Of a stretch of 64,000 nt of DNA, positions 17,372 through 30,874 are shown piece by piece. The position numbers and the translations under genes are program-made. The notes below the pieces were generated by a model. That model was not told the origin of the DNA, ran no database searches, and worked only from the letters and a program-made list of their open reading frames with translations. Location of the stretch: contig JAKSSX010000001.1 of NCBI GenBank assembly GCA_024402895.1, forward strand, positions 86,090 to 150,089, in the 5' to 3' direction. Numbering within the stretch: position 1 is the first letter of the stretch; the number at the start of each line of letters is the position of its first letter. Source of the stretch: Candidatus Saccharimonadota bacterium. GTDB taxonomy: Bacteria > Patescibacteriota > Saccharimonadia > Saccharimonadales > Saccharimonadaceae.

Positions 17372-17856
17372 TCTTGAATTACTTCTAGCGCGTTATCTTG
17401 CTGAATGTCGATAACTGCCTGAACGGCTGCTTTTTTGGTTTTCCAAATGCGATAGAAGCAGAAGAATGCAATGTATGCTAGAACGCCTGCTAGGCCTGCT
17501 AGGGCGTCAATAAGAACGTCAGTGGCGCTGCCATTGCGGCCGGAAACGGTGAGCTGATGAACTTCATCGAGCGCGCCGTAGATGGTTGCGGCGATGATAG
17601 GATAGAAAATCTGAGTATACTTTGGGAAAGTAAGTGGATGGAGGCCTTTGATGAAGCTAGTGCAGCTGTAGCCGAGCGCGCCAAAGAGTGCAAAGTGGGC
17701 GAGTTTGCGAATTAGGCCTTCGGATATGCCGAGGAAACCTGCAAAGATGCCTGATTCACTTGAAGAAATAGTGCCATTATGGCTAGAGAAGTTCCAGATG
17801 ACGAGCACGAAAAAGATTGGGAAAATAATACGCCAATATCTCTTGATAATGCTCAT
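17359..17856 (-). CDS. VanZ-like integral membrane protein
   Basis: 165 residues with four predicted membrane helices. The N-terminus KRYWRIIFPIFFVLVIWNFSS carries the first helix and the SSHNGTISSSESG loop typical of VanZ-like proteins; LIRKLAHFALFGALGY and GALDEVHQLTVSGRNGSATDVLID are the strongly conserved blocks with their H, DE and D residues. VanZ-like proteins are widespread in Gram-positive and CPR bacteria; a role in envelope or teicoplanin response is known only for VanZ itself. The C-terminal tail is polar. Start at 17856 has GGGAG about 12 nt upstream and a TATAAT about 30 nt upstream. A convergent promoter and possible antisense RNA lie at its 3' end. Confidence 0.88.
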   Translation of the reverse strand: MSIIKRYWRIIFPIFFVLVIWNFSSHNGTISSSESGIFAGFLGISEGLIRKLAHFALFGALGYSCTSFIKGLHPLTFPKYTQIFYPIIAATIYGALDEVHQLTVSGRNGSATDVLIDALAGLAGVLAYIAFFCFYRIWKTKKAAVQAVIDIQQDNALEVIQEKSA

Positions 17857-17939
17857 GCTTGCATCTGCTCCCTGTTATTGTTTTATATATTATACTATTT
17901 TTTGCGCATAAAAGCAAACGCGTCTATAATTAAAACATT

Positions 17940-18275
17940 ATGGAGGCAAACGAATATCAGGATTTGGCGCTTCGCACGCTAAACAAAGACTTAGATAAGG
18001 ATCAAGTATTACTAAACGGCGCTATGGGTTTGTGTGGCGAATCTGGCGAGGTTATCGATGCATTAAAGAAGCATTTGATGCACGGTCACGAGCTTGATCG
18101 CGAGCATATGATTAAAGAGCTTGGTGATGTTTCTTGGTATTTAGCTATCACCGCTTACGCGTTAGATTGTGATTTGTCCGAGGTGTTTGAGCGCAATATT
18201 GCGAAGCTTAAGGCTCGTTATCCTGAGGGTTTTTCCGAGGAGCGTTCGAAACATCGCGCCGCTAATGACGATTAG
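17940..18275 (+). CDS. MazG-like nucleoside triphosphate pyrophosphohydrolase
   Basis: 111 residues, the length of a single all-alpha NTP-pyrophosphatase domain. Metal-binding acidic helices are visible: GLCGESGEVIDALKKH (E-x2-E) and KELGDVSWYLAITAYA (E-x2-D). It probably hydrolyses house-cleaning or non-canonical nucleotides to monophosphates in the cytoplasm. A TATAAT (17925-17930) ends 9 nt before the ATG without a Shine-Dalgarno; the GGAGG at the start lies inside the coding sequence. The tRNA-Glu promoter begins three bases after its stop. Confidence 0.9.
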   Translation: MEANEYQDLALRTLNKDLDKDQVLLNGAMGLCGESGEVIDALKKHLMHGHELDREHMIKELGDVSWYLAITAYALDCDLSEVFERNIAKLKARYPEGFSEERSKHRAANDD

Positions 18276-28006: not shown

Positions 28007-29452
28007 TTAATCGCGGGCGTATGCAGTGATTACTGCGTTCATGCGAGCGAGGCTACGTTCGCGTCCGAGAACGCTGAGCGTATCGTGTAATGCCGGGCTG
28101 AATGGTGCGAAGCTGACAGAAAGACGGATGAGGCCGAATAGTTCTGCTGGTTTGCGACCGGTCTCAGCGAGTAGTTCGTTGAGCGCGTTTTGAAGGTTCT
28201 CTGCGGACCAATCTTCTACTGCGCGAAGTTTTTCTACACCAGCGCGAAGAATGTCTTGGATTTCCTGTTCGGAAAGCTTCTTGAGAGCCTTATTGGACTC
28301 AATCATAGTCATATCGACAGCTGGATCTGCGAAGAAATAGCTAGTCATACTCTTGAGGTCGCCGAGAGTTTTGAGGCGATCGTAAATGATGCTGAAAATG
28401 CGGAATTTGTAATCGTCGTCAGAATTTGCGGCTGCTTCTGGCCAGAAATCTTTGGTACGGTTGTAGAGTGCGCGAGCATCTTCTGTGAAGAGCTTGCGAA
28501 TCCACTGACCGTTGAGCCAGATAAGTTTTTGCTCGTCGTAGCGAGCGCCAGCGTGCTGAATGCGGTTAATTTCGAATTTCTCAATAAGGTCTTCACGACT
28601 ATAAATTTCCTCTTCAGTGCCGTCGTTCCAGCCGAGGCATGCGAGGAAGTTTAGCATAGCTTCTGGAAGGATGCCGTCTGCGCGATAATCTACCGCAGAC
28701 TTTGCACCGTCGCGCTTGCCGAGCTTCTTGTTACCGCTAGGTGCGAGAATGTGTGGCAAGTGAACAAACTTTGGCGTTTCTAGGCCGAGAGCTTCGTAGA
28801 TTGCGAGGTAGTTGCCCATGCTTGGCAAATATTCCTGACCGCGGAAAATGTGGGTGATACCCATAGTTGCATCGTCGACAATATGTGCAAAGTTATAGGT
28901 TGGCAAACCGTCTGCCTTGATGAGAATAATATCGTCCTGCGTTTCTGGAAGCATAACTTTGTCGCCAAAAACCTCGTCATGATAGCTACGCTCTTTTGGC
29001 TCTGCCTTGAAGCGAAGTGGCATGCCTGGCTCCCATTCTGGAGTGTTTTCTGGGCGATAGTTGCGATATAGGAAAGCCTGCTTGTTTTTGTTAGCTTCCT
29101 CGCGATACTGAGCGATAGTTTCGCTAGGAGTTGGGTCAGCATAAGCGCGACCGGCAGCGATAAGCTTCTTTGCCCATTCGATGTAGATTTCTTGGCGCTG
29201 GGTCTGGAAATATGGACCGTGATCGCCGCCTCTTTCTGGGCCCTCGTCCCAGTCGAGACCAATCCACTGAAGAGTGTCTTCGATAAGCTCGGTTGCGCCT
29301 TCTACGTAGCGAGCGCGATCGGTATCTTCGATGCGCAAAATATAGGTACCCTGCTCCTTCTTTGCGACGAGGTATGGGTAAATTGCTGAACGTAGGTTGC
29401 CGATATGAATGTAGCCGGTCGGCGACGGCGCAAAACGAGTGACGATTTTCAT
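28007..29452 (-). CDS. gltX: Glutamyl-tRNA synthetase
   Basis: 481 residues, normal for bacterial GluRS. Class I signature PSPTGYIHIGNLRSAI (HIGH motif) is at 9-24 and the KMSKS equivalent is KKLGKRDGAKS at about 248. ADGLPTYNFAHIVDDATMGI and HIFRGQEYLPSMGNYL are conserved tRNA- and ATP-binding blocks. It charges tRNA-Glu, such as the CTC species at 18317; whether it also charges tRNA-Gln cannot be told here. A TATAAT (29460-29465, minus) ends 7 nt before the ATG, without a Shine-Dalgarno, suggesting a leaderless message. Confidence 0.97.
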   Translation of the reverse strand: MKIVTRFAPSPTGYIHIGNLRSAIYPYLVAKKEQGTYILRIEDTDRARYVEGATELIEDTLQWIGLDWDEGPERGGDHGPYFQTQRQEIYIEWAKKLIAAGRAYADPTPSETIAQYREEANKNKQAFLYRNYRPENTPEWEPGMPLRFKAEPKERSYHDEVFGDKVMLPETQDDIILIKADGLPTYNFAHIVDDATMGITHIFRGQEYLPSMGNYLAIYEALGLETPKFVHLPHILAPSGNKKLGKRDGAKSAVDYRADGILPEAMLNFLACLGWNDGTEEEIYSREDLIEKFEINRIQHAGARYDEQKLIWLNGQWIRKLFTEDARALYNRTKDFWPEAAANSDDDYKFRIFSIIYDRLKTLGDLKSMTSYFFADPAVDMTMIESNKALKKLSEQEIQDILRAGVEKLRAVEDWSAENLQNALNELLAETGRKPAELFGLIRLSVSFAPFSPALHDTLSVLGRERSLARMNAVITAYARD

Positions 29453-29482
29453 ATCTGTTATTATACCATCTTTTTGGTTTTA

Positions 29483-29544
29483 TTGACAAATAATATAAAG
29501 TATGCTATAATAAAAAGATGGTAGTTCTTTAAGGTAGTTTTCTT
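29483..29544 (+). promoter_or_regulatory. Perfect promoter, leaderless mini-ORF and 5' arm of a long-range stem
   Basis: TTGACA (29483-29488), 17 nt, TATAAT (29506-29511) with extended TGC. Six nt later ATG GTA GTT CTT TAA (29518-29532) forms a four-codon ORF. Its last bases and the following GGTAGTTTTCTT (29533-29544) are complementary to AAGAAAACTACC at 29853-29864 in the 3' region, with TCTTT/AAAGA (29526-29530, 29865-29869) extending the helix across a 2-nt bulge. Confidence 0.65.
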
Positions 29545-29571
29545 GCCATTCCGTTAAAGGGGGAATTTTGA

Positions 29572-29610
29572 ATGAAGAATGTCGATCAGCAGGTTGCTGA
29601 TATGATATAA
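29572..29610 (+). other. 12-codon ORF with strong ribosome-binding site, upstream part of a disrupted gene
   Basis: ATG at 29572 has AAAGGGGG about 9 nt upstream. It reads MKNVDQQVADMI and then TAA. The peptide NVDQQVAD resembles MNQQVAEI in the next ORF, and skipping one T at ATA-T-AAA would join both frames. A 16-nt direct repeat ATCAGCAGGTTGCTGA underlies the similarity. Confidence 0.55.
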
Positions 29611-29614
29611 AGAT

Positions 29615-29839
29615 ATGGATATGCAGGCAGAGGCAATGAATCAGCAGGTTGCTGAAATCAATGCTAGTATTGCCATTGGAATCGAAAGAATTAAGAAAAT
29701 CACCGTAAGCGAAGAGTCGCTTGCGAAAATACGTAATAGCGTGCAGGTTGTGCGTGAAGTAACGGATCAGACGAATCGTGCATTAGCAGATGCAAATGCT
29801 GCCATAGAAGGCGCGCGTTCGATTAAGGTCGCAATTTAA
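29615..29839 (+). CDS. Small coiled-coil protein, apparently split by a +1 frame change
   Basis: 74 residues as an independent ORF, but its ATG lacks a ribosome-binding site. The real start is probably the ATG at 29572, which has one; that frame stops after 12 codons and would continue into this ORF if one base were skipped near 29607. The joined product would be about 88 residues, an amphipathic, Ala/Gln/Glu-rich helix (QVAEINASIAIGIERIKKIT, NRALADANAAIEGAR) without Cys or aromatic residues. No family recognised. Either an indel, a programmed +1 shift at UAA, or two overlapping peptides. The whole region lies inside a transcript with complementary ends. Confidence 0.5.
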   Translation: MDMQAEAMNQQVAEINASIAIGIERIKKITVSEESLAKIRNSVQVVREVTDQTNRALADANAAIEGARSIKVAI

Positions 29840-29880
29840 GTAAGCAGGCCAAAAGAAAACTACCAAAGACATTCATGCCA

Positions 29881-29906
29881 GGCCCCGCGGTGCGGGGTCA
29901 TTTTTA
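29881..29906 (+). terminator. Terminator of the small coiled-coil transcript
   Basis: GGCCCCGC-GGT-GCGGGGTC stem followed by ATTTTTATT. Confidence 0.88.
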
Positions 29907-29974: not shown

Positions 29975-30811
29975 TTAGAACTCGTAATCGTCAGGAATGA
30001 ATGTGACGTCTGTTCTGCCGACTGATCTAGTGAAAGCATCCCAGTTGTTTTCGTCTGGATTTCCAGTGCTATTGTAGGAAGGATTCTCGTACCAGCCTAC
30101 AGATATACTGCCGTCAGAGTTCGCTGTTACCTTGAGCATTCTAAGTTCATAGCATGCGTGACCGACATAAGGCCAAACTACTATAGCGTAGCGTGTGTCG
30201 CTTGCAATTACTGTTTCGGAATACTCAATGTAGTAGCCCTGACCAGTAATCCATGAATCGAATGCTCCGAGTTCTGCCTCGGCTGCTGCTCTCAAATCTT
30301 CCATTGTAACTACGGGAGTAGGTGCCTCTGTTGGAGCCACTGTAGGAGCTGTAGTTGGAGCCTGCGTTGGAGGTGCAGGTGGTGCTTCAGTAGGTGGAGC
30401 TGGAGGATTAGTTGGAGCTGTTGTTGGCGCCTGGGTAGGTGGAGGAGGTGCCTGCGTTGTAGCAGGTGGTGCTGTTGGTGCCGTAGTCGCTGTAGGGGCC
30501 TGCGTAGTTGTAGGCGCTGTTGTTGACGTAGGCGCTGTTGTCGGTGTTGTTGTTGGCGTAGCCGTTGGTGTTGGAGTTGGCGTAGAAGTTGTAGTTACTT
30601 CAATATCCGCTCCGTCATCGATGTCCGCATTAGGCTCATCTGGCATATCCAATTCTTCCATAGTAGAGTTGTCCTCTGCCTGCAAAGCTGCTGGCTTCTC
30701 GTCTTCGCCGCATGCTGTAAGCATAGTGAGACAAAGGCTGAGAATGATAGCTATGCTAATTACCTTCATAAGTCTTGAGGTAAGAAGCTTGTTTTTTGTT
30801 TCCTTTTTCAT
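29975..30811 (-). CDS. Lipoprotein with long Pro/Thr/Ala-rich stalk and small C-terminal domain
   Basis: 278 residues from the ATG at 30811, which has AAAGGAC upstream; an in-frame ATG at 30874 would add 21 residues before the signal. The signal region (MKVISIAIILSLCLTM) ends with the lipobox LTAC, Cys34. After an acidic stretch, about 110 residues are a Thr/Pro/Ala/Gln stalk built of short repeats such as TQAPTTAPT, a likely glycosylation or cell-wall-spanning spacer. The final 110 residues are a compact domain with GYYIEYSETVIASDTRYAIV and GWYENPSYN, of no recognised family. Exposed on the outer face. A long leader with two hairpins precedes it (30875-30953). Confidence 0.8.
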   Translation of the reverse strand: MKKETKNKLLTSRLMKVISIAIILSLCLTMLTACGEDEKPAALQAEDNSTMEELDMPDEPNADIDDGADIEVTTTSTPTPTPTATPTTTPTTAPTSTTAPTTTQAPTATTAPTAPPATTQAPPPPTQAPTTAPTNPPAPPTEAPPAPPTQAPTTAPTVAPTEAPTPVVTMEDLRAAAEAELGAFDSWITGQGYYIEYSETVIASDTRYAIVVWPYVGHACYELRMLKVTANSDGSISVGWYENPSYNSTGNPDENNWDAFTRSVGRTDVTFIPDDYEF

Positions 30812-30874
30812 ACTTTTACCAGTCCTTTCGAGTTTGGTCTTGAAAATTCCGAACACTTCATAAGATTCGCACAT

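Follow-up and report, generated by a model that had tools for sequence, protein, structure and literature searches.

In a 64,000 nt stretch of Saccharibacterial DNA (hereafter the window), a short gene divergent from gltX probably specifies a transcript whose 5′ and 3′ untranslated regions (UTRs) have been selected to pair with each other, and comparison of sequences across the genus suggests that such selected end pairing very likely characterizes a class of strong-promoter transcripts. The end helix is predicted to be able to form, a relative carries a different helix that matches itself, and other gene families keep the pairing and not the sequence; we infer that the helix also forms in cells. 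On balance, we favor the reading that the window gene gives rise to a protein-coding mRNA with a selected UTR end helix, that it belongs to this class, and that hiding the transcript ends is the main job of the helix. The recurrence across the genus adds to what the window sequence alone could show. The source organism is a gut or rumen Saccharibacterium; its gltX has its nearest relatives in Saccharibacteria assemblies, of which several come from the gut of sheep, goat, cattle and buffalo.

Transcript ends and reading frame in the window

The initial annotation had described a perfect promoter, exactly complementary arms extended by TCTTT/AAAGA, a terminator, and an ORF that stops after 12 codons and continues in the +1 frame, and all of these elements were recovered (Table 1). 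The promoter matches the consensus at 12/12 positions, with TTGACA at 29483-29488, TATAAT at 29506-29511, a spacing of 17 and a TG ahead of the -10 box, and transcription would start near 29518. The UTRs of the predicted transcript contain complementary segments that would pair intramolecularly: the two arms are exact complements over 12 bp and are followed, past a 2-nt bulge, by the 5 bp of TCTTT/AAAGA, to which the fold adds 5 bp of UGGUA/UGCCA. The end helix totals 22 bp in the predicted fold and closes the transcript immediately 5′ of the terminator.

Table 1 Predicted features of the end-paired transcription unit (window coordinates)
Feature	Position	Strand	Basis
Perfect promoter TTGACA-17-TATAAT, extended -10 (TG)	29483..29511	+	predicted from sequence
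UGGUA, outermost 5′ strand of the end helix; partner 29876-29880	29519..29523	+	minimum-free-energy fold
TCTTT, 5′ strand; partner 29865-29869	29526..29530	+	fold, pair probabilities 0.69-0.96
5′ arm GGTAGTTTTCTT	29533..29544	+	sequence; pair probabilities 0.86-1.0
Local hairpin ATTCC/GGAAT, partly over the Shine-Dalgarno G run	29549..29567	+	fold
12-codon frame 0 (MKNVDQQVADMI) after the Shine-Dalgarno sequence, ends TAA	29572..29610	+	sequence, codon usage
74-aa +1-frame ORF, two-helix coiled-coil-like protein	29615..29839	+	ORF, codon usage, structure prediction
3′ arm AAGAAAACTACC	29853..29864	+	sequence, pair probabilities
AAAGA, 3′ strand; partner 29526-29530	29865..29869	+	fold, pair probabilities
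UGCCA, 3′ strand, abuts the terminator stem; partner 29519-29523	29876..29880	+	fold
Intrinsic terminator stem, then T-rich tail to about 29909	29881..29899	+	sequence

The whole RNA folds with z = -4.6 relative to dinucleotide shuffles, none of 100 shuffles being as low, and with the 5′-3′ pairing forbidden, the minimum free energy was -94.0 instead of -123.0 kcal/mol, a cost of 29 kcal/mol. The 12-bp arms reach a score of 28, which is attained by 0.26% of the mismatched promoter-terminator pairs of the genome; on its own, this score is no more than suggestive. The earlier judgement that a 17-bp pairing of the two ends is unlikely to be accidental agrees with the folding statistics, and it becomes convincing in the light of the relatives described below. 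A search of the window locus against Rfam 15 gave no hit at the gathering cut-off, and relaxing the threshold to E values up to 10 yielded chance-level matches only.

Frame 0 reaches its stop codon at 29608-29610, and the +1 frame has an ATG of its own four bases past it. Codon usage resembles that of coding sequence over the initial 12 codons of frame 0 and then over the remaining 74 in the +1 frame, where it lies five standard deviations above shuffles, and the switch between frames coincides with the interruption. We therefore regard the frame as really interrupted, so that a full-length product would need a frameshift; neither a slippery site nor a Shine-Dalgarno (SD)-like frameshift stimulator was recognized by eye, and re-initiation at the ATG at 29615 could yield the 74-aa part. 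Because the codon statistics are joined by an intact relative, the broken frame appears as a departure from a normal gene, which may be due to gene decay or to an error in the assembly, an incomplete draft (87.8% complete, 21 contigs). Single-sequence structure prediction gave two long helices for the 74-aa part (mean pLDDT 89), the helices look amphipathic and the encoded protein has a GRAVY of -0.05; no Pfam family scored above the cut-off for the 74-aa protein. The coding part also contains two copies of CAGCAGGTTGCTGA (29587-29600 and 29642-29655), each of which forms a self-complementary hairpin.

The neighborhood shows further features. An 11/12 promoter of gltX (29452-29489, minus strand) stands back to back with the promoter studied here, and the gltX mRNA may be leaderless because its start codon lies ~7 bases past the -10 box. 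The divergent promoters are flanked by a 12-bp inverted repeat, TACCATCTTTTT/AAAAAGATGGTA (29464-29475 and 29512-29523), possibly a regulator site. At 29975-30874, the minus strand encodes a lipoprotein-like protein whose sequence includes a long stretch rich in Thr, Pro and Ala, and a low-complexity protein similar to this product seems to adjoin gltX in another locus (L017).

Counterparts with different but matching arms

In the slot upstream of and divergent from gltX, one among the relatives compared (locus L013 of genome G026) repeats this design with a TTGACA-17-TATAAT promoter, a 5′ arm GGCTCTTTTAGGCAA, an ORF of 81 aa and, after a 3′ arm TTGCCTAAAAGAGTC, a terminator-like hairpin. The comparison of reading frames thus found an intact frame in the relative, the N terminus of which aligns with the 12-codon frame of the window. 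The two proteins are 28% identical over their full length, but the pairwise BLAST match was not significant (E 0.41), so that their homology is argued chiefly from position, size and design. The arms of L013 pair with each other over 15 bp and differ in sequence from those of the window: with their own partners, the arms score 28 (window) and 34.5 (L013), compared with 12 and 13 when partners are exchanged. Arms that are unlike each other yet self-matched form the pattern expected if pairing, and not sequence, is selected. Covariation of the arms in relatives, which the initial annotation had put forward as a check, was accordingly observed, with one relative for the window gene.

Other searches for the gene gave less. 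The locus DNA matched only short promoter or terminator fragments in 60 relatives, the 74-aa protein had no significant match when 44 other genomes of the genus were searched, and queries of 45 genus genomes with this protein, its L013 counterpart and a profile built from two sequences returned nothing significant beyond the window and L013 loci. Which small genes occupy the slot adjoining gltX varies from genome to genome within the genus (L012-L040).

A second gene family with paired ends emerged when the window's own genome, together with parts of G026, was scanned for this architecture. Its founding member (G000 C9:10553-10918) has the arms TTTATGAAACGT/GCGTTTCGTAAA, and the homolog in G026 has TTTTTTTGGAACT/AGTTCCAAAAAAA. 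Members in the genus encode a shared protein of ~120-160 aa, and each has a strong promoter and a leader that is long and structured. In 9/9 members, a segment that begins 29-42 nt past the predicted transcript start pairs with one located 2-14 nt before the terminator, and the sequences of the paired segments differ in most of the nine. Only 2/362,880 permutations of the 3′ ends reached the matched total, the 3′ segments having been delimited by hand just before the terminator in the same way for all members. As a control, the convergent neighboring GYNK gene family, which has short 3′ UTRs, showed no pairing (p 0.24). Pairing maintained through compensatory change was hence seen in one relative for the window gene and in nine members of this second family.

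Long structured 5′ leaders with a conserved hairpin, UUUCGGGUUAGUUUUCUGC..GGGGAGCGGAAAACUAGCCCGAAG, were noted at L144-L150, L155 and L156 (e.g., L145:1242-1437). Their consensus fold has 19 pairs, 3 of them with two-sided changes, and Rfam gave no match among the loci searched; judged by its sequence, the leader is a candidate for a new cis RNA motif.

Survey of end pairing across the genus

Perfect TTGACA-17-TATAAT promoters were collected from the window's own genome, from one automatically chosen locus in each of 30 genomes, and from 80 stretches of seven genus genomes that were picked from a list with arms not inspected, a choice that left out some promoters repeated between genomes. As promoters defined the sample, the loci were not chosen by their arms. 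Units that combined an ORF with a terminator nearby and a usable 3′ UTR were retained, 53 in all. A helix score of at least 22 was reached by 7/53 units, compared with 0.62 expected from mismatched pairs; for scores of at least 20 and 16, the counts were 9/53 (1.7 expected) and 27/53 (10.6 expected), and none of 5000 permutations attained the observed result. When each 3′ UTR was compared with its dinucleotide shuffles, 15 of the 53 units were significant at p<0.05 (2.65 expected; binomial p 3e-8). The signal survives without the second family and outside the window's own genome, and it is stronger in units with leaders of at least 90 nt. The paired genes are mostly unrelated to each other; L192 and L260, a pair of homologs outside the second family, again have different, matched arms. 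The wider order beyond the genus provided only 4 usable units, so the class is a statement at the genus level.

The result depends on promoter strength and on how the helix is defined. In the window's own genome, strong-promoter units showed a modest excess (p 0.02), and there was none among intermediate-promoter units (p 0.51) or among 222 weak-promoter units (p 0.22), the promoters of which are mostly false. A genome-wide RNAduplex scan of all promoters and first terminators revealed no enrichment, in our opinion because long gapped duplexes were permitted and weak calls were numerous among the promoters, and contiguous-helix scoring gave a mild excess genome-wide (5 versus 1.24 at score 26); the helix definition was changed after the loose scans had given nil or mild enrichment. 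An initial gene-model scan was biased by loci fetched for the second family and was therefore repeated on perfect-promoter units unselected for arms.

Several individual units deserve mention. In a cell-wall-hydrolase-like gene (G000 C1:166400; L104, about 17399-18250), the UTRs pair perfectly over 14 bp, AATTTGTTTTTGCT/AGCAAAAACAAATT, immediately ahead of the terminator. The leader of an end-paired unit from a Saccharibacterium that is more distant (L066:6572 onward) also carries TCCTCCTCG, which is complementary to the unit's own SD sequence CGAGGAGGA. In leaders of unrelated strong-promoter genes (L192, L209, L217, L220, L254, L259 and L260), a hairpin at the start site, a GCACAUU-like stretch and the 5′ arm often follow one another, as noticed by eye. 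A genome of the genus holds about 7-28 perfect TTGACA-N14-TGNTATAAT promoters (45 genomes), compared with mostly 0-4 in the other genera of the order (69 genomes of the order).

Possible roles of the end helix and known systems

End protection is the role that we would, with some reserve, assign to the helix as its main one. The helix would hide the 5′ end from attack by RNase Y or RNase J and, together with the terminator hairpin, would shield the 3′ side; hidden ends would give a long-lived message, and a closed-loop effect on translation could accompany the protection. Proteins of the RNase J, RNase III and RNase Y families are encoded in the genome. Protection from RNase J/Y is preferred as the mechanism since pairing mostly leaves the ribosome-binding site free: a distance of 16 nt or more separates the 5′ arm from the start codon in the window and in 13/15 significant units, and the 3′ arms lie 0-22 nt from the terminator. 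The 5′ arm of the window ends ~14 nt upstream of the SD sequence (about 29558-29564), and this stop short of the ribosome-binding site favors stability over translational control.

Alternatively, end pairing might act as a translational off-switch that keeps the finished mRNA untranslated until the 3′ end is trimmed or an opening factor intervenes, as 5′-3′ pairing does in the short mRNAs of hok/aapA (PMC6733600) and icaR (PMC3868564). Consistent with such a switch, the 5′ arm overlaps the SD zone, to which the 3′ arm pairs, in 2/15 significant units (C20, at G000 C20:602, and L210), and a local hairpin partly covers the SD sequence of the window. This hairpin is, however, predicted both with and without arm pairing, the predicted accessibility of the SD sequence is the same in either state and the start codon is even more open with the arms; furthermore, no minus-strand promoter-like site of consensus type was found within 29519-29900 and the proteins are not hydrophobic toxins. 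Overall, a switch of this type is unlikely.

Less probable still is a processing stalk, in which RNase III would cut the helix and so trim the two ends simultaneously, as happens in rRNA precursors. Processive RNase III cutting usually takes roughly 20 bp or more, and although a helix of 12-22 bp is a plausible substrate and the enzyme is encoded in the genome, many paired arms comprise just 7-13 bp, below the usual length. The icaR pairing offers a precedent, being cut by RNase III (PMC3868564).

The initial annotation had offered two readings, a structured RNA that also encodes a peptide and an mRNA with joined ends. The latter has gained from the matched arms of L013 and from the recurrence with compensatory change, while the former is now less favored in view of the coding-like codon usage and the intact counterpart. 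The same evidence bears on a structured non-coding RNA closed by the arms, with reading frames that are incidental: the broken frame, the low folding energy and the two internal copies of the self-complementary CAGCAGGTTGCTG speak for it, but codon usage that changes frame exactly at the interruption, the 81-aa ORF at the same place in L013 and the absence of an Rfam match make it improbable. A known ncRNA family was rejected because Rfam gave no match.

Chance complementarity in AT-rich UTRs, to which the little excess in the first, loosely defined scans would fit, is very improbable, given that the composition-controlled nulls (mismatched pairs and dinucleotide shuffles) were both exceeded, that the syntenic L013 carries its own matched arms and that weak-promoter units stayed flat. 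Terminal inverted repeats of a small mobile element, complementary at the DNA level, can be dismissed almost entirely despite the variable gene content of the slot beside gltX, and transposon ends were rejected, since arms vary within one family while remaining self-matched, promoter and terminator lie outside the arms, and the pattern tracks transcript ends in many unrelated genes.

For the end-paired mRNAs as a class, we tentatively suggest that end joining is a general layer of expression in the genus, with perhaps a quarter of the messages from the strongest promoters closed by a terminator-adjacent helix, in many cases behind an elaborately structured leader. Saccharibacteria are reduced, host-dependent bacteria whose molecular biology has been little explored. 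Genetic tools are now available for some of them (PMC11665869). If the class is real, mRNA end joining would be a common habit of these bacteria and not a curiosity, which would turn anecdote into a system and provide a natural test set for what end joining does in bacterial mRNAs; it might represent a bacterial counterpart of closed-loop mRNAs, with extended lifetimes or recycling of ribosomes.

In bacteria, a handful of single mRNAs are known in which the 5′ and 3′ UTRs pair with each other, namely icaR, hbs, RNAIII and hok/aapA. What appears to be new here, as far as sequences can tell, is the recurrence of such pairing over unrelated genes within a Saccharibacterial genus, next to the terminator and held by compensatory change, which our limited and incomplete literature search did not find described. 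The type I toxin mRNAs hok and aapA1/aapA3 are likewise short mRNAs for small proteins with a long-distance interaction between both ends (PMC6733600), but the window gene shows no consensus-type antisense promoter, hydrophobic toxin or predicted occlusion of the SD sequence by the arms. A type I toxin mRNA was rejected, as no antisense promoter of consensus type was seen within 29519-29900 and the product is not a small hydrophobic or membrane-active peptide. In Staphylococcus aureus icaR, a UCCCC motif of the 3′ UTR covers the SD sequence, blocks translation and invites RNase III (PMC3868564). The Saccharibacterial units share with icaR the pairing of 5′ and 3′ UTRs inside one mRNA, but their arms usually avoid the SD sequence, C20 and L210 being more icaR-like; in the window gene, no 3′ UTR segment is predicted to pair with the SD sequence. 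The Bacillus subtilis hbs mRNA (Braun et al. 2017), as presented in a review (PMC7821165), has a UTR pairing of ~14 nt, encodes a small protein and is reported to be protected from RNase Y, an enzyme that is encoded here too. Whereas hbs is one Firmicute gene characterized by experiments, the pairing described here extends, at the sequence level, over many unrelated Saccharibacterial genes, often with long structured leaders.
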